From positions 1 to 39,665 of IMG/VR virus record IMGVR_UViG_3300044858_004990: a stretch of 39,665 nucleotides of DNA; one strand, given 5' to 3'. This stretch comes from a virus. Shown piece by piece: positions 5,689 through 37,533 of the stretch (the first letter of the stretch is position 1; every line of letters starts with the position of its first letter). Made by a program: the position numbers and the translations under genes. The notes under the pieces were generated by a model. The model was not told where the DNA came from and searched no databases. It saw nothing but the letters and a program-made list of their open reading frames with translations.

Positions 5689-8600
5689 CTATGCTTGCGC
5701 TTCAGACCATGAAAGTTTGGCTGATGATAGTGTAGAGTTTCCTGTAAGACGTGCAACTGCAATAGTAATAATATCAGGGCCGTCTGGGAAAATGCTGTCT
5801 CCACCAAGAATAGAGTTTGACATCTCAAAGAGACTGCTAACGTCTACTGTTGTTGTTCCTTCAGATCCGCCACCGCCACCTTCTCCACGGAAGTTGTAGA
5901 TCTGAACTCCACCGGACACTGTATCAGCCGCGGTGTGCTCAACGATTTGAGTAAGTGAAGGCGCGTCTACACCAACAAAGTTCAAGTTGTTGAGACGTGG
6001 GTTTAGAAGAACCTTAACGTCAATCAACTGTGTTGATGAGGTAGCAATTTCCGCGAGTCGTAACTGCATGCGGTTGATAACGTCTCGATCTCCAAGTTTT
6101 CCTGTTAGACCTGACGATACCGATGGGCTTAAACGAAGTGAGATAAGAGGCTGGTAGTTTGGACCAGAGGTGTTGTTGAGTGAGCCGTCTGGGTACAGGA
6201 AGTACGTAAACTGTGTGTTTCCTTGGCCAGTGAAGTCAATAACTTCTGAGACAATTGAGCCAGACTCAACTAAGATTGTTTGGTTGGTACCTACTGACGG
6301 ATAAGTAAACGTGTTAGTTCCAGTTACAGTAACTGTGAACGCTCCGTTAGCTACACCGGTTGGAGAAGTTACTGGCTGGCTCATATTTAGAGTTGTATTT
6401 GCTACTCCGTAGACTCCAACGTACATACCAGTTGACAGGTTGTGCGGCGCTACAGTTGTAACTGTCATAACGTTAGATGTTCTTGCAAATGATGCACCAG
6501 TGCTAATTGTAGCTGTAAGAGGTGCTAGGTGCAGCAAGTTTGTAGAATTTACGATGGTTTTGTATCGTGCACCGTTTGTTAAGTTTGCAAGAGTGTTAGA
6601 TCCAACAACTCGGGTTGGAGGGTTTTGCAGGTCTGATCCTCGTAGGCCGTTTGATCCAATAGACTCGAACTGAAGAATATCTCCGCTTCTAAATCCGTGA
6701 GTTTGTACAGTCATTAGATCAGTCGTTAGGTTGATACCTGTTGACGCGAATGACTTTGCAGTAGTTCCTCGAATGTCCAAGGTCTGGCTGTTTTGTGTAA
6801 ACAAATACGCGTTATCGTCGTCAAAGCGGCCGTCCATCATTACCGAGGTGCCCCAGTGGAACAGGAACGGAATGTATGTAGGGTTTTGGTAGGTAACTAC
6901 CTCGTAGCGTGCTGGAAGGTTACCAGAACGTAGATATGACTCAAACAGGTTGTTGTTGTGAACGAACTCGTGAACGTAGCGAACCTGTCCGTCGGTTGTC
7001 TTAAACCCAAAACGAATCTTTCCAGCGCCGTACCAAGAGTAGTCGATGTAAGCCATCTGAATTCTTGAAAGATCAAGGTTGTAGCCTGTTACGCCTGTTC
7101 CATTGCAAGGGTCAATTGACCAGTTTTGTTGAGCAACCTTTGTGTCAACTGTCTTTGTGATAATGATGCCTGACTTAGCAGGTGTAAATGAGTGAATCGT
7201 AGTTGTTCCGACGCTTGAAAGGTTTACAAAACCTTCAGCGCCTGGAGCTGACTTTAGCTTAAACGTGTTTCCTGTTAGTAGGCTGATGTAGTATGTTCTA
7301 CCGTTTACAAGACCACCGATAGGCTCGCCGTCGATTGAGTTGTAGACAACTGGGAGAAGATCACTGAATCCGTGACCAATAATCGTAAAGACGTCTGTTG
7401 ATGTGTTTACGACTGTTGCTGGGTTAAACTCTTTCTCTGTTCCAGATGATCCCTTGTACTCTGGGCGAACTGACATTCGAGTGTTTGAGTCGATCTGCGT
7501 AATACGGTAGCTTTGGCCGCGCATAACAACGAAGTCGCCAACGACGAGCTGTGCCTGGAAACTTGTGCCAGTTCCGAATACAAGCTCTGAACCTTGCAGT
7601 GCGGCAGCCGTTCCAGCAAGTTGTTGAGTTGATGAACGACGCACCGCATATAGATTTTGGCCATCAAACTCAAAGAACATACCGTTTTGGAAGTCGTACA
7701 TACCAGTACGAACAGCTCCACCAGACCACTCGCGGACATAGAACTGAGGGAATCCGTATGCGCGGTTTTCTGTGATTGTACCGGCTGCTCTGGTAATTGT
7801 AAACGTTGTTAGGTTTGTTACTGTTACCTGGAATTCACCGTTGTAGACTTGGCTTGTTACACCTTGCGAGTCCTTTGCCTCGGAGATGACAACAAATAGG
7901 TCATTGACAAGTCCGTGTGGACGACGAGTCCTACATGTGATTACAGTGCTGCTAGTTTGAGTCATGCTTTCAAGGTCAATTGATGGCTTAAAGTTGATAC
8001 CGCAGGAGGTCTGTAAACCTTTACCTGACTGATAGCGGAAGTATTTACGTGTTTGTCGAACAATAGAACCGAATGATGTACCGCTACCAACAGACATCTC
8101 AACGCCACCATCAAATGGACGGTGTAAAGAGTATCCTTCAGGGCGAACATAGATAAACGTTGGGTATGAGTATGATATTGCTGTGTACGCGCTTGAGTAA
8201 GGGCGATCTACGGAGATCTGCGTGTCAGAGCCAATCGCAGTGATACGACGAATAATTGGGCCAACTGAGGTTGTCTTTGTTAGCGTAAACGCAGATCCAG
8301 TTCCAGTGGTGCTAAAGTCTGCAGGGCTTGTATTAGTTGTAGCGTCAGCTGCTGATCCGTGAAGGGTGATCTGAGTATCACTAATTTTACGAACAAAGTA
8401 GTAGTAAGCATCAACTAGTGGGCTGGGCGCTACACCACCGTTTGCGGCAAACTTTACTGTGTCACCAGTTTCAAAGTTGTGTGTGCGTGTGATGCGGTTA
8501 GTTGACGTGTCAACGTTGACTGCTGCAAATTTTGTTTGATCTGCAACCAGTGTAAACGCTGTTCCAGTTCCAGCAGCTGTTATGTCAACAGTGCTTGTAT

Positions 8601-31331: not shown

Positions 31332-31620
31332 TAAAATGTTTTACTATCGCTGCTGTAGCTAGAAGTGACCAAAGGATATTAAACCAAATAATTGTAGGTA
31401 GCGTCTTAACTGTAGAGGACCAGATAAGGGAAAGGCTAGTCAAAAGGGCAATTATGTAAAGCCACCATATCTGAGTGTCGAATAATAGACCGGGAATAAT
31501 AATTGCCGCTTTTGTCATAAAAGCAAAGAACTCAACAGTGTTAGGTTTATTCCAGTATTTCTTATAAGTCATAGTCTTTAGAGCGTCAACCCACTGCCCT
31601 CTAAATCTTTTAGTTTGCAT
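31324..31620 (-). CDS. Small multi-pass membrane protein, 98 aa
   Basis: After a basic N-terminus (MQTKRFRGQWVDALKTMTYKKYW) there are three hydrophobic segments: F-F-A-F-M-T-K-A-A-I-I-I-P-G-L-L-F, I-W-W-L-Y-I-I-A-L-L-T-S-L-S-L-I-W, and I-I-W-F-N-I-L-W-S-L-L-A-T-A-A-I-V. It is therefore an integral membrane protein with about three helices. Its ATG overlaps the end of the halogenase gene by 11 bases, which indicates coupled translation. I cannot assign a function; a part in membrane delivery of the halogenase product or in lysis would be guesswork. Confidence 0.7.
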   Translation of the reverse strand: MQTKRFRGQWVDALKTMTYKKYWNKPNTVEFFAFMTKAAIIIPGLLFDTQIWWLYIIALLTSLSLIWSSTVKTLPTIIWFNILWSLLATAAIVKHFIS

Positions 31621-33169
31621 TTCTTAAGTTTTCTAAGAACTCTTTATGGGTAGAAAAATCTTTAGTTGCTTTACTCATGCTGCCTGCTTTACTAAAGTAC
31701 GTACTACCGGCTTTTATTTCAAAGTAATTAGCGTTACTAGTTTTTTCTAAAATCTTTAGGTTTAGCTGGTTAGTGCCTCTAGCCACCATCATCCAACTAT
31801 TAAGCTTAAAAAGGTCTGCATCGTAGTCAGAGTAAGAAGGGGCTCGATACTTCCAGCGATCTAGCATTTTTTGTATCTCACTTGGTGCATTTTCATAGCT
31901 GTATTGTTTCCAAAACTCGGTATCTGACCTGCCTGACATGTAATGAAAGTACAAGAAGTTTTTTATGTTTCTGTTTCTTTCTACAAATCTGTTGTTTACT
32001 TCTTCTATATGTCCAGGATCTTGTTCATAAATACTGTTTAGATTAGAGAAAACTTCTTTTAGTGTTAAAATTGTCATCCATATTGATGTAGCTTCTAGAG
32101 GCTCTATAAAACCAGAAGAAAGGCCTACAGCAACGCAATTTTTTATCCAAGGTGTTTTATAGCACCCTGCCTCAAAAGTAAACGCACCCTTAGTACCGCG
32201 AGGATACTCCGGTACAAACCCAAGAAACTCTTCAATCTCTAAAGCCGCTTCCTCTTGAGATGTAAAAGTAGAATCAAAAACGTATCCGCACCCATATCTT
32301 TCCTTAGTGGGTATCTTCCAAATCCAGCCGTGCTTCATAGCTATGGCTTCGGTGTAAGGAGGAATGTCATCTTCTATAGGAAGAAAGAAGGGCAGCGCAG
32401 AATCTACAGTAAGCTTATCTTTATAACTTATCCATTCAGAGTTAAAGTGCTTTCCAATGAGTAATCTGCTAAAGCCGGTGCAGTCGATTACAAAATCTGC
32501 GTACTGAACAGTTCCATCGCTGAGCTGCAGTGACTCTATGCCTTTATTGTCATTAGAGTTTACAGAAGTAACCGTGCTATCTTTAACTGTGATTCCTCTT
32601 TCAATTCCAATTTTTTTAAGCAAAACCGCTAGTTTAACTGCGTTAAAATGAACAGCCCAGCTGGAGACGGCAGTGTAGCCGAATATAGGGTCTATCTGCC
32701 AGTCTGTAACAGAGCCATTGTACGTAAAAGGGACTTTTTTACTTTTCCCGGCAACCTCGGTTATGTCTATACTGGCTGTTTTTCCTTTTTTTAAGGCGTT
32801 TAGCACTATGCTTACATTTGTATCCAGTATGTATGGGTTGTAGACGTTGCAGCCGTCTAGACCTAGGGGTCCTTCTGTATGAAAGGGGTGATGATACACG
32901 CTTCCTTTTTCGGTCCAGTTAGTAAACTTTACAGAGGTCTTTATTGTCGCGTCTGCCTCTTTAACAAGGAGAGATATGGGTATCCCTAAAAAATCTGTAA
33001 AACTAACAAAGTCTGGGACTGTCCCTTCGCCTGCGCCTAGTATCCCTATGTCCTTCGATTCTATAACAGTCACATCTGCTAGCAAGAAAGCGTTTTTTGC
33101 GTAAAGAGCTGCAATCCAGCCAGCAGTCCCACCGCCTACAATAACTATCTTTTTTAAGTCAGAGCCCAT
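31610..33169 (-). CDS. Viral flavin-dependent tryptophan-halogenase-like enzyme, 519 aa
   Basis: Flavin-dependent halogenases use reduced FAD, O2 and halide to make HOX, which a lysine delivers to an electron-rich ring. Seen here: the FAD motif G-G-G-T-A-G-W (12-18), A-G-E-G-T-V-P-D-F near 46-54, a lysine at 77 in A-T-I-K-T-S-V-K-F-T-N-W where the catalytic Lys of PrnA/RebH lies, the diagnostic W282-I-W284-K-I-P, and E359 in F-I-E-P-L-E-A-T-S-I-W. The length is normal. Phage members are known; a cyanophage enzyme (VirX1) iodinates many substrates in vitro. The residue after E359 is Ala, where PrnA has Ser. The substrate is unknown and a flavin reductase was not seen. AAGGA precedes ATG 33169. 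Confidence 0.9.
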   Translation of the reverse strand: MGSDLKKIVIVGGGTAGWIAALYAKNAFLLADVTVIESKDIGILGAGEGTVPDFVSFTDFLGIPISLLVKEADATIKTSVKFTNWTEKGSVYHHPFHTEGPLGLDGCNVYNPYILDTNVSIVLNALKKGKTASIDITEVAGKSKKVPFTYNGSVTDWQIDPIFGYTAVSSWAVHFNAVKLAVLLKKIGIERGITVKDSTVTSVNSNDNKGIESLQLSDGTVQYADFVIDCTGFSRLLIGKHFNSEWISYKDKLTVDSALPFFLPIEDDIPPYTEAIAMKHGWIWKIPTKERYGCGYVFDSTFTSQEEAALEIEEFLGFVPEYPRGTKGAFTFEAGCYKTPWIKNCVAVGLSSGFIEPLEATSIWMTILTLKEVFSNLNSIYEQDPGHIEEVNNRFVERNRNIKNFLYFHYMSGRSDTEFWKQYSYENAPSEIQKMLDRWKYRAPSYSDYDADLFKLNSWMMVARGTNQLNLKILEKTSNANYFEIKAGSTYFSKAGSMSKATKDFSTHKEFLENLRNAN

Positions 33170-33257: not shown

Positions 33258-33935
33258 CTATTGCTCTTCTTGTGTCCTATTTGCCTTTAAGTAACTTAAA
33301 GTTTTTCTTATAGTAGATCCGTGCCAGGCTCCACCTAACGCAGTAGGGATTTCTTGAGCATTTAGCTGACGAGCTGTTTCATGATATGAAACACCTTTAT
33401 CTCGTAGTTCTGTGATGATCTTCATTGCCTCGTCTGATATTTTGCTCTTAGGACCAAGATCAACTCCCCAGTTCTGACCAGTCTCTCGACGATACTTATG
33501 AACTGACTTCTGTCGCTCAGAGATAATAGACCTTTCCATCTCTGCGAGAGCAGACATGATTGTCACAACAAAACGTCCTTGGTACGTAGATGTGTCAAGG
33601 TTAAGGTCTAGCATGACTAGACGCCAACCCTTCTGATTAGCTCTGTCGACGATGTTTAAGAAGTCCTTTGTGGAACGTGCGAGGCGATCTACACGGGTAA
33701 CAATCAACGCTGAGGCTGTTCCATTGTCTAATCTATCAAGTGCGCCACGCAAGGCAGGACGACCTTTAATTGACTTACCAGAGCGCCCTTCCTCTCGGAC
33801 AAGTTCCATCTCGGTGTAACCAGCAAACGTGGCTGCAGCCCTAAGTTCTCTCTCTTGAGCGTCCAAAGACATGCCATCTGTTGCCTGCATTTGGGTTGAA
33901 ACACGTGCGTAGAGTAGTGCTATTCCTGTTGTCAT
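33258..33935 (-). CDS. Small serine recombinase (resolvase/invertase family), 225 aa
   Basis: The catalytic N-terminal domain has Y-A-R-V-S-T-Q with the nucleophile S13, S-L-D-A-Q-E-R-E-L, G-R-P-A-L-R-G-A-L-D-R-L, the arginines of V-T-R-V-D-R-L-A-R-S, and the long helix with A-L-A-E-M-E-R-S-I-I-S-E-R. A small helix-turn-helix end follows (S-Y-H-E-T-A-R-Q-L-N...W-H-G-S-T-I-R-K-T-L). At about 225 aa it is the size of resolvases and DNA invertases, not of large serine integrases (over 450 aa). I choose ATG 33935, which has GAGGAA at good spacing; a GTG at 34001 would add 22 unlikely residues. It faces away from a two-gene fibre cassette. Its action (resolution, inversion or integration) is not shown by sequence alone. 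Confidence 0.9.
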   Translation of the reverse strand: MTTGIALLYARVSTQMQATDGMSLDAQERELRAAATFAGYTEMELVREEGRSGKSIKGRPALRGALDRLDNGTASALIVTRVDRLARSTKDFLNIVDRANQKGWRLVMLDLNLDTSTYQGRFVVTIMSALAEMERSIISERQKSVHKYRRETGQNWGVDLGPKSKISDEAMKIITELRDKGVSYHETARQLNAQEIPTALGGAWHGSTIRKTLSYLKANRTQEEQ

Positions 33936-34099
33936 AAGTTCCTCATATTCATCAAATTCCGCATGAATGTACAATTCTTTACCCGTAAAACTAGTGTACA
34001 CCCTTTTGGTTAAACGTGTATGATTATAGCAGGGTTTTCACCGCGCGATGGCGCTAAAACACGGAATCTACAAAACAAATAGAGTATACAATAGATTAC
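33936..34099. promoter_or_regulatory. Divergent region between recombinase and fibre cassette
   Basis: This 164-base stretch holds the starts of two diverging units. It includes an imperfect inverted repeat at about 34034-34060 (GTTTT...GCGC...GCGC...AAAAC), the type of symmetric site small serine recombinases or their regulators bind. On the plus strand TATACA (34085-34090) lies 10 bases before ATG 34100; as no SD is visible there, a leaderless mRNA, common in actinobacteria, is possible. Confidence 0.35.
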
Positions 34100-34456: not shown

Positions 34457-34738
34457 ATGGCTGACATCGAAATAGAAGTTTCAACGCAAGGACCTCAAGG
34501 TGCACAAGGACCGACCGGACCAACGGGTCCCTTAGGACCGACAGGACCATCAGGAGGGGCAACCGGACCGACTGGCCCAGCAGGACCAACGGGACCAGCA
34601 GTATCATTCGTATCCGTTCCTTCAACTCCAACTTCATCTGGCACCGCAGGACAATTTGCTTTCAGCAACACGTTCCTTTACGTATGTGTGGCAACAAACT
34701 CCTGGATTCGTGTCTCAAGATCGGCCTGGAACGCGTAA
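34457..34738 (+). CDS. Mini collagen-like fibre, 93 aa
   Basis: A miniature fibre: a 10-residue start, about 36 residues of Gly-X-Y ([15 protein letters not shown]), then a short end domain with T-A-G-Q-F-A-F-S-N-T-F-L-Y-V-C-V-A-T-N-S-W-I-R-V-S, common at the ends of phage collagen-like proteins. GGAGGTGA, a near-perfect SD, lies at the end of the preceding gene. It is the only collagen-like gene on the plus strand, separate from the main fibre block by more than 10 kb. Its small size suggests a short spike or an assembly partner. Confidence 0.85.
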   Translation: MADIEIEVSTQGPQGAQGPTGPTGPLGPTGPSGGATGPTGPAGPTGPAVSFVSVPSTPTSSGTAGQFAFSNTFLYVCVATNSWIRVSRSAWNA

Positions 34739-34751
34739 CTTCCGTGTAAGG

Positions 34752-34774
34752 CTTCTTAGTGGAGATCTAAGAAG
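34752..34774 (+). other. Hairpin after the mini-fibre gene
   Basis: CTTCTTAG (34752-34759) and CTAAGAAG (34767-34774) form a perfect 8-bp stem with a 7-base loop, 14 bases after the stop. No T run follows directly, so it is not a standard terminator; a second weaker stem TTAGAG/CTCTAA (34801-34817) followed by T-rich sequence may complete the ending. Confidence 0.45.
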
Positions 34775-34817
34775 TTGAAAGCTAAACAAAATAAGGCTTT
34801 TTAGAGAAGCGCTCTAA

Positions 34818-34849
34818 TTGTACTTTTTGGCACTAAGAGGCGATATAAT
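34818..34849 (+). promoter_or_regulatory. Candidate promoter of the structured RNA
   Basis: A perfect -10 box TATAAT is at 34844-34849. TTGTAC at 34818-34823 is the nearest -35-like word, with a long spacer of 20 bases. Transcription would start at about 34856, exactly where the run of pairing elements of the structured region begins. Confidence 0.4.
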
Positions 34850-34855
34850 AACCTA

Positions 34856-35168
34856 TTGCCCTAAAGGCGTAGGTCGCAGCCAGTTGGAAGGTCTAACGTA
34901 AGTGCGTAAGTCTATAAAACCCTACAAATGAAAAAGGCATATCGTCCTGAACATGACGTACAACTGTTATCCCGAACGGCCTTAGGTGATATGCATACTA
35001 TGCACAATCATCACCGCAAAAAGGTTAGAGTGCTAGACGCTGGTTAGGTAGCCAATGTCGGGGTAGGTGAAGACACGTGGGGCGCCTTGAAGTCATAAAG
35101 GCGTTGACCTAATAACAGGGGAGATAGCTTTTAGGCTATCAGTTATGAAGTCCCCGCCAGCGTCTAGC
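34856..35168 (+). ncRNA. Large structured non-coding RNA, unassigned
   Basis: About 310 bases without a convincing gene but with many pairing elements. The 3' domain is closed by a perfect 12-bp stem, GCTAGACGCTGG (35032-35043) with CCAGCGTCTAGC (35157-35168). Inside it are TTAGGT/ACCTAA (35044-35049/35107-35112), CGCCTT/AAGGCG (35083-35088/35098-35103) and GGGGA+GATAGC/GCTATC+TCCCC (35118-35128/35135-35155). The 5' domain has GTAGG/CCTAC, GCATATC/GATATGC (34937-34943/34988-34994) or, as an alternative, GGTGAT+TGCAT/ATGCA+ATCACC (34985-35015). TCTAAC/GTTAGA (34892-34897/35024-35029) would make a pseudoknot. The motifs do not match tmRNA, RNase P or a group I or II intron as I know them. Large ornate RNAs such as GOLLD and ROOL occur in similar phages. 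The strand is chosen from the TATAAT upstream; ends are approximate. Confidence 0.55.
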
Positions 35169-35814
35169 TCGGCCTTTTACTTTCCCATTCATCAAGATCT
35201 TCAGGATAATCAAAATCAGTTGTCCAGTCGTCTATCTTAATGCAGTGTTGAGTAACATCCCAGTGTGGACGTGTAAGTGATTTGTACAAAACCCAACCGC
35301 CAGCACGAGGAGCCGACTTATCTCGTATAAGTGCAAGCATGCGCTGTCTTATAAGAGAGTTTACTGAACTGTCAAACGATATTGCAAACACCTCGCGGCG
35401 CGAGCCTCCAAGAGCCTCCAAGGAATCTCTAAGAAGAAACGTAAAACTATCGTCAGTTGTCATGATCTGATCCATTGCTTCATCTGTAAAGTACACATCT
35501 CCAAACACAAGGACCGTGCGTGTGTCAGACCAGAGAGTCATAGATGAATAAAACTTAAGAAGATCACCAAAGTCAGCATCTTCAGCCGCAGGTTTGGTGA
35601 TGTACAAGGATGTGCCTTCTATAGTGTATGCGTCACTTGATCCAACAACAACAATGTCATTGGTGTACCTTTTTAACTGTCTAACGGTTCTTTCAATTAA
35701 AACCTCACCTTCAACGTTTAGAAAGTGTTTAGCAGTTCCTCTGTAGTTTTCCCAGCGATCTCCATTTCCTGCCGCAAGGACGAGGACCTTAAGCGTTGGA
35801 CTTTTTACTAGCAC
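35164..35814 (-). CDS. Sugar-nucleotidyltransferase-like protein (NTP transferase family)
   Basis: The signature L-V-L-A-A-G-N-G-D-R-W followed by K-H-F-L-N-V-E-G is the nucleotide-binding loop of the NTP_transferase/MobA-like fold, which joins a nucleotide to a sugar or alditol phosphate. Further on, F-G-D-V-Y-F is the metal-binding Asp region and I-D-D-W-T-T-D-F-D-Y-P-E-D-L-D-E-W is the classic end strand of such enzymes. The length, about 216 aa, fits a single catalytic domain. I use GTG 35814; TTG 35838 is also possible, and either overlaps the preceding 42-residue gene. Its final codons overlap the last stem of the structured RNA. With the cupin at 36595 it may supply a nucleotide sugar for glycosylation, which is inference. 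Confidence 0.82.
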   Translation of the reverse strand: MLVKSPTLKVLVLAAGNGDRWENYRGTAKHFLNVEGEVLIERTVRQLKRYTNDIVVVGSSDAYTIEGTSLYITKPAAEDADFGDLLKFYSSMTLWSDTRTVLVFGDVYFTDEAMDQIMTTDDSFTFLLRDSLEALGGSRREVFAISFDSSVNSLIRQRMLALIRDKSAPRAGGWVLYKSLTRPHWDVTQHCIKIDDWTTDFDYPEDLDEWESKRPS

Positions 35815-35917
35815 TTGCGTCGTTCTTGATACAGTCAACGCAGTAGCTATAAGCCTTCCACGTATTTGGTTCCATCTTTGTTACGTAGGCAGGTTTATCA
35901 CAAAATGAGCAGGTCAT
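35789..35917 (-). CDS. Zinc-ribbon micro-protein, 42 aa
   Basis: The gene encodes MTCSFCDKPAYVTK... with two C-x2-C pairs, C3/C6 and C26/C29, separated by about 20 residues: a minimal zinc ribbon. Its ATG is one base after the stop of the previous micro-protein and its end overlaps the nucleotidyltransferase start region. The Cys spacing and packing make it credible despite its size. Such mini-ribbons often bind nucleic acid or proteins; the target is unknown. Confidence 0.7.
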   Translation of the reverse strand: MTCSFCDKPAYVTKMEPNTWKAYSYCVDCIKNDASASKKSNA

Positions 35918-36549: not shown

Positions 36550-36594
36550 TGGCGTATCCTATCAAAGCCTAAAAAGCATGATAAAGTTACAACC

Positions 36595-37458: not shown

Positions 37459-37532
37459 GCCTCGTTGGTCTAGCGGTTTAGGACGCCTCCCTCTCACGGA
37501 GGAGATCGTGGGTTCGAATCCCATACGAGGTA
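37459..37532 (+). tRNA. tRNA-Glu (anticodon CTC)
   Basis: A complete cloverleaf: acceptor GCCTCGT/ACGAGGT (37459-37465/37525-37531, first pair G-U), D arm with TGGTCTAGCGGTTTAGGAC, anticodon stem CCTCC/GGAGG with loop CTCTCAC giving anticodon CTC, and T arm with GGTTCGAATC. The CCA end is not encoded. It reads GAG codons. The ATG of the next gene is only one base after the discriminator base. Confidence 0.95.
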
Positions 37533-37533
37533 C

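Follow-up and report, generated by a model that had tools for sequence, protein, structure and literature searches.

The window, meaning the whole 39.7-kb stretch of DNA analysed here, is an IMG/VR virus record that forms part of a large phage. Between a collagen-like fibre gene on the 5' side (34457-34738, plus strand) and a convergent nucleotidyltransferase gene on the 3' side (35164-35838, minus strand), it contains a predicted structured RNA gene that spans ~34,855 to ~35,178 on the plus strand. The 3' arm of its helix P1 (35156-35168) overlaps the 3' end of the nucleotidyltransferase gene. The nearest annotated relative of the window's phage is 'Actinomycetia phage DSL-LC01' (accession OQ999401), a phage from a lake metagenome (PMC10611076), with 79% identity between the primases; in the ribonucleotide reductase, DSL-LC01 shares 81% identity with L035, a relative of the window. 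An actinobacterial host fits the window's phage, since WhiB genes are present in DSL-LC01, and the carriers of the RNA family are taken to be viruses of lake-type Actinobacteria.

Several other genes were noted around the locus. A tryptophan-halogenase-like gene (31610-33169, minus strand; Pfam Trp_halogenase, E = 1e-102) also has a counterpart in the DSL-LC01 annotation. A short, DNA-invertase-related serine recombinase (33258-34001, minus strand) occupies a similar place in most relatives, beside variable fibre genes, which suggests that fibres are switched or exchanged here. A tRNA-Glu(ctc) gene lies at 37459-37533 (plus strand), 2.3 kb from the RNA, and the relative L036 has five tRNA genes on the minus strand (5993-8299), 1.4-3.7 kb from its RNA.

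Extent and relatives of the RNA

All support for the RNA comes from DNA sequence. A preliminary description of the region had proposed a structured intergenic RNA behind a perfect TATAAT, and this is borne out: the -10 element TATAAT stands at 34844-34849 (plus strand) and at the same place in every complete member, the region folds more stably than dinucleotide shuffles (z -3.0, and z -5.1 for the P1 domain alone), and the fold has the comparative support given below. Most other members have an extended -10 element, TGTTATAAT or TGATATAAT; the promoter was assigned by eye and by position, and transcription is expected to start at ~34855-34857. At the other end, the tail UCGGCCUUUU (35169-35178, plus strand) is a possible terminator end, and many members have a U-run after P1 (UCGAUUCUUUUU in the L084 group), with L082, L107 and L110 lacking one. 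The distance from the promoter to the end of P1 is 156-325 nt in the 26 members, and the minimal member measures ~150 nt. We infer that the RNA is its own transcription unit, made from a sigma70-type promoter and ending at or soon after P1.

The same description had given the RNA an extent of 34739-35168, of which the part from ~34,855 stands, but 34739-34843 was rejected, since it precedes the promoter and its conservation does not go beyond the closest relatives. Hairpins between the fibre stop codon and the RNA promoter (34752-34842), namely CTTCTTAG..CTAAGAAG and AAGC..GCTTTTT, are kept in the closest relatives only and are probably the terminator of the fibre operon. We also considered whether a 39-codon frame at 34928-35047 is a small protein gene and rejected it: close relatives differ in the codon at which the frame ends, other groups have no upstream ATG, and L082, L086, L088, L096 and L107 have stops within the motif. 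No codon conservation was seen in this frame and the stems covary among homologues, so that the earlier reading of the region as RNA is upheld on both counts.

We found 26 distinct complete copies of the RNA on viral contigs, all with the same architecture, and in the nine records examined it is single-copy per genome. The copies were gathered via neighbouring proteins, via patterns made from the conserved parts and via a small gene that precedes the RNA in other phages. Since L002, L003, L004, L005, L009 and L082 were reached through neighbouring genes and not through an RNA pattern, the features that the copies share are not merely the result of ascertainment. No meaningful match came from BLASTN searches of 50,697 phage records, for which the window RNA and two further types served as queries, or of 72,556 plasmids, queried with the window RNA. 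A strict pattern scan of 84,980 species genomes returned zero copies, and the nine matches of a loose pattern in the same genomes all lack the second stem of the 26-nt module described below and are apparently chance or coding. The RNA is absent from DSL-LC01 and from the 130.5-kb record of L081. Searches of Rfam at gathering and permissive thresholds with the window and many relatives (L065, L107, L082, L036, L093, L086, L094 and L037) returned just tRNAs and chance matches, even at E<=10. The RNA thus lies outside known classes, as had been supposed, with chance-level matches only to the Rfam covariance models. Orphan non-coding RNAs of phages are already known as a group, but this RNA family and its module are new and matched by no known family, which brings to light from little-cultured aquatic phages an RNA whose double-pseudoknot core is defined and which is absent from the standard catalogues.

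Conserved core and optional domains

Structured RNAs usually consist of a constant core and optional inserts. Comparison of the copies shows that the predicted core here begins with a 26-nt H-type pseudoknot; a second, long-range pseudoknot then reaches into the loop of P1, a helix of 13 bp that encloses P2 and the hairpin H3, and the remainder is optional insert. From 5' to 3', the copies have in common the 26-nt pseudoknot, CC plus 3-4 nt that pair into the P1 loop, a hairpin of variable size, and P1; inside P1 there follow a joiner of 12-13 nt, the long-range partner strand, a joiner of ~10 nt that often holds an insert and, on the 3' side, P2 (4 bp), H3, 8-11 nt, P2' and P1'.

All core elements of the window lie on the plus strand. 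The 26-nt module CGTCCTGAACATGACGTACAACTGTT occupies 34943-34968, with stem S1 at 34943-34946/34955-34958, stem S2 at 34950-34953/34965-34968 and an A-rich loop at 34959-34964, and both stems covary. The long-range pseudoknot pairs CCCGA (34971-34975) with TCGGG inside P1 (35058-35062), and it is formed by CCCAA/UUGGG in L004, CCUCAC/GUGAGG in L003, CCGUCC/GGACGG in L002, CCACCC/GGGUGG in L065 and CCACUC/GAGUGG in L082, L084 and others. In P1 (35032-35044 with 35156-35168), 10 of the 13 pairs are double-changed and 99.7% of cells are paired. The perfect 12-bp closing stem with arms about 113 bases apart that had been reported earlier is this helix; the stem is real, but has 13 bp with one G-U pair and 111 nt between the arms. 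GAGU directly before P1 (35028-35031) is kept in most groups and missing in the L082/L093 group. P2 (35118-35121/35152-35155) occurs as GGGG/CCCC, AGCG/CGCU, GACG/CGUC, GAUG/CGUC, GAAG/CUUC and GCGG/CUGC, and in H3 (35123-35129/35134-35140) the arm sequences vary with pairing maintained.

The predicted fold is strongly supported by this comparison, including the two pseudoknots, which the preliminary description had missed. In the core alignment A3, which was built with MAFFT and for which the structure was chosen by us, 93.7% of cells are paired and 24 of 37 pairs are double-changed and still paired; its covariation score is 0.549, compared with 0.218 after shuffling and <=0.125 with slid partners. 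Under a tree-aware null, in which columns are re-evolved independently on the tree, 0 of 1000 replicates come up to the observed values for pairing, for double-changed pairs or for cells, pairing drops to ~70%, and the tree-based test of the whole structure infers 31-38 compensatory branch events, figures that are inflated by the placement of P2, H3 and the pseudoknot strands according to best pairing. The MAFFT alignment, which involves no such placement and is free of this bias save through our choice of structure, backs every helix except parts of H3. A pair-by-pair test against all column pairs under the tree null singled out one of the 32 pairs (E<0.05) and has low power because of the few independent lineages.

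Outside the core the RNA varies. The window has a 5' domain of type C (34850-34942, plus strand), with a hairpin CCTA..TAGG (34852-34873) and a hairpin GTTGGA/TCTAAC (34883-34888/34892-34897), which in other members is exchanged for another 5' domain or lacking. Three unlike 5' domains were found, in the window group, the L084/L002 group and the L082/L088/L093/L103 group, and L088 joins the 5' domain of one group to the core of another. Most members have ~60-95 nt of additional RNA 5' of the module; in L003 and L065 the domain is missing and the core begins a few nucleotides from the expected 5' end. The window group carries additional hairpins within the loops. One, GGTGAT/ATCACC (34985-35015, plus strand), varies in length and has a short hairpin in its stead in other groups; the other, CGCCTT/AAGGCG (35083-35103, plus strand), is limited to the window's group, where it covaries in L009 (CGCTTT/AAAGCG) and is replaced in L036, and is missing in other groups.

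Most of the specific internal stems outside P1 in the preliminary description proved wrong. It had proposed a pseudoknot between 34892-34897 and 35024-35029. These strands could pair in the window, but a hairpin GTCC AAGGT GGAC takes the place of the window's hairpin at 34883-34897 in L004, L005, L035 and L036, so that the 5' strand is replaced and the 3' strand retained. A second proposal, two mutually exclusive foldings around 34985-34994, requires GATATGC, which is missing in L004, L035 and L036. Both proposals were rejected for want of conservation.

The same contrast between a conserved 3' part and a less conserved 5' part is known from GOLLD (PMC12286853), and it raises the possibility that the RNA forms a small analogue of the GOLLD and ROOL particles, an RNA-only or ribonucleoprotein structure such as an oligomeric cage. 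GOLLD and ROOL are likewise phage-encoded orphan structured RNAs with pseudoknots and with tRNA genes nearby (PMC12286853), and tRNA genes are found 1.4-4 kb from the present RNA in the window, L036, L003 and L037. These tRNA genes are not adjacent, however, and with ~150-320 nt against ~660 to >800 nt the RNA is far smaller and falls short of the ~600-800 nt or more expected of that class; it has a different topology and lacks a match in Rfam, so that we regard a structural particle as very unlikely. The suggestion that the RNA is a truncated member of the GOLLD/ROOL kind is not supported either, given the distinct topology, the ~150-nt minimal member and the absence of Rfam matches from the tested members.

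Neighbouring genes

In most groups the neighbours of the RNA are a DUF91 gene and a cupin gene (mannose-6-phosphate isomerase-like), the cupin lying just 3' of the RNA on the same strand; in the window's group, whose genomes have no DUF91 gene, they are the fibre and nucleotidyltransferase genes. The gene upstream of the RNA also varies between groups. The next gene is on the opposite strand in the window group and in L093, a different gene follows in L003, and the cupin is displaced in L101. Directly before its ATG the cupin has a leaderless promoter-like sequence of its own, read by eye as TATGATAAAG / CATGATAAAG or similar, and this is retained in the window at 36577-36586, 1.4 kb from the RNA and with opposite-strand genes between.

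An alternative is that the RNA is a cis-regulatory leader, either a riboswitch or an operator, of the downstream cupin gene. The RNA stands directly 5' of a same-strand cupin in most members, and manA-motif RNAs of cyanophages precede mannose-metabolism genes (PMC2864571); like the manA and wcaG motif RNAs, the present RNA comes from phages of aquatic metagenomes and often has a mannose-related gene downstream. In contrast to these, its promoter is separate from that of the cupin, it is not always upstream of a cupin, and neither manA (RF01745), even at permissive thresholds, nor wcaG was matched in Rfam. The TATGATAAAG-type promoter lies 3' of the RNA, between RNA and cupin, and has been kept in the window despite the 1.4-kb gap; moreover, the association is inconstant, with opposite-strand or unrelated genes following in the groups named above. 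A cupin leader is hence an unlikely general explanation, although in the groups where a same-strand cupin directly follows the RNA a cis role is conceivable. Since the neighbours are not constant and a separate promoter serves the gene that usually follows, the RNA looks free-standing, and we infer that during infection it acts in trans.

Most loci have a DNA-invertase-like serine recombinase at a distance of 0.6-5 kb from the RNA, and the locus could therefore be read as a DNA element, a recombination or inversion site of this enzyme, with the covarying arms as inverted repeats. Such a site would not explain that two pseudoknots and inner hairpins covary, that a promoter precedes the element in constant orientation, or that the 26-nt module occurs alone in cyanophage leaders; in addition, no serine recombinase was found near L002 and L003. 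We consider this explanation extremely improbable.

The 26-nt module and possible modes of action

The module follows a consensus of a 4-bp S1, a loop CYN, a 4-bp S2 (RRYA with UGYY), one nucleotide, S1', six nucleotides usually ending in AAC, and S2'. S1 is of CG, GC and UA types, and S2 occurs as AACA/UGUU, GACA/UGUC, GGCA/UGCC and AGCA/UGCU. Pairing is kept in 98.9% of cells, and 6 of 8 pairs are double-changed, across 22 distinct modules drawn from the RNAs, from cyanophages and from one other phage. The module was recognised through a looser pattern with a free loop, which matched other phages, some of them with a longer S2 (CAGGCA/UGCCUG). With a sequence-structure descriptor, 18 copies were found in 73.5 kb of cyanophage sequence compared with 0.05 per 100 kb of shuffled sequence. 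A search of Rfam with the module gave no match, and a target search with a part of it that had seemed single-stranded, but is a strand of the pseudoknot, gave nothing useful.

The cyanophage contigs G013-G015 have 5-9 candidate copies of the module each, standing alone. The isolated Synechococcus phage S-EIV1, whose DNA polymerase shares 69% identity with that of G014, has seven copies in its genome. In six of these an annotated start codon follows at 16-25 nt, and five of the six also have a stop codon 4-10 nt upstream; the chance of a random position being intergenic and 10-45 nt before a start is 0.03. A module precedes the gene for the ssDNA-binding protein (SSB) in S-EIV1, at 22 nt before the start, and in G013 and G014; among the actinophages no SSB gene preceded by a module was found. 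By themselves, the modules of S-EIV1-like freshwater cyanophages resemble a phage regulon. In L168 (S-EIV1 record 25890-43014, minus strand), L166 and L167, modules of 26-30 nt, of which these phages have 7-9, mostly stand right before starts without an evident Shine-Dalgarno sequence.

The module links the orphan RNA to leader elements of a cultivable phage and turns it into a testable question, as both the cyanophage S-EIV1 and its host have been isolated, and what is learnt there about the function of the module, be it an operator, a roadblock or a ligand sensor, could carry over to the RNA. As judged from the comparisons, the probable and, in our opinion, best explanation is a free-standing new family of phage RNAs with a double-pseudoknot core, which would act in trans. 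In the mechanism that we favour, though with a low probability of its own, the scaffold would stably present the 26-nt module to an RNA-binding protein, and the RNA would be a decoy or a docking RNA for the protein that binds the module; a phage SSB is a candidate partner, and so are other translational regulators that resemble T4 gp32. That the module is a protein-recognition site and the RNA a decoy or docking RNA for its binder is put forward tentatively, by analogy and from two observations, the shared sequence of the module and its position. The operator of T4 gene 32, an H-type pseudoknot of ~28 nt with a UUAAA-type sequence in the mRNA leader 5' of the start, controls an ssDNA-binding protein (PMC535899). 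It may be likened, by topology and position, to the H-type pseudoknot close before the SSB start in S-EIV1-like cyanophages, a likeness that does not extend to the actinophage RNA; it differs in that the module also stands before many other genes and within a free-standing RNA. The wider proposal, that phages built a free-standing decoy out of a leader pseudoknot, that the module is the site of a phage regulator (SSB or other) over a set of genes and that the large RNA titrates or recruits this regulator in trans, across unrelated actinobacterial and cyanobacterial phages, is speculative and we hold it to be doubtful. The RNA may also bind a small ligand.

The main rival to the decoy mechanism is a mechanical one, in which the module would be a roadblock to a 5'-3' exoribonuclease (RNase J) and would stabilise the RNA 3' of it, leaving the RNA's own task to P1 and the pseudoknot core. 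The module is only a few nucleotides from the expected 5' end in the minimal L003 and L065, its topology (4-bp S1, 3-nt L1, 4-bp S2, A-rich L3) matches compact H-type pseudoknots, and the intergenic modules of cyanophages could protect processed messages. In vitro, bacterial RNase J1 is stopped by a resistant RNA of viral origin (PMC5760640), and the flaviviral exoribonuclease-resistant RNAs offer a possible mode of action, a compact pseudoknot near the 5' end that blocks 5'-3' exonucleases including RNase J1; they have no sequence relation to the module, and the likeness is an analogy of mechanism only. Against this, the extra RNA 5' of the module in most members (~60-95 nt) is not what a roadblock calls for, known resistant RNAs have a ring fold and the module is characterised here, from its sequence, as an H-type pseudoknot, and the spacing of 16-25 nt before starts suits translation control at least equally. 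We regard the roadblock as a possible but rather improbable alternative to the decoy or docking role.

Lone modules were also seen outside the cyanophages. The actinophage G001 has, besides the large RNA, a second module with S1 CGAC/GTCG (L152 1502-1527; G001 ~47726-47751, plus strand), ~20 nt ahead of the codon at which a small gene may start. In L106 (5188-5213, minus strand), L108 (1119-1144) and L123/L124, otherwise unrelated phages, lone modules lie 3' of tRNA genes; the upstream gene in L106 and L108 is a tRNA-Leu gene, and the matches in these two fit the module including both stems, with no P1 core. The weak matches in G009, G002 and W01, like several of those in G016/G017, are probably due to chance. 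Finally, a recurrent AACTGTCACCGC / TCTGTCACCGCAGGT was noted before or inside phage genes in L002 (~7570 and ~8140), L003 (~5260 and ~3110), L148 and L164.
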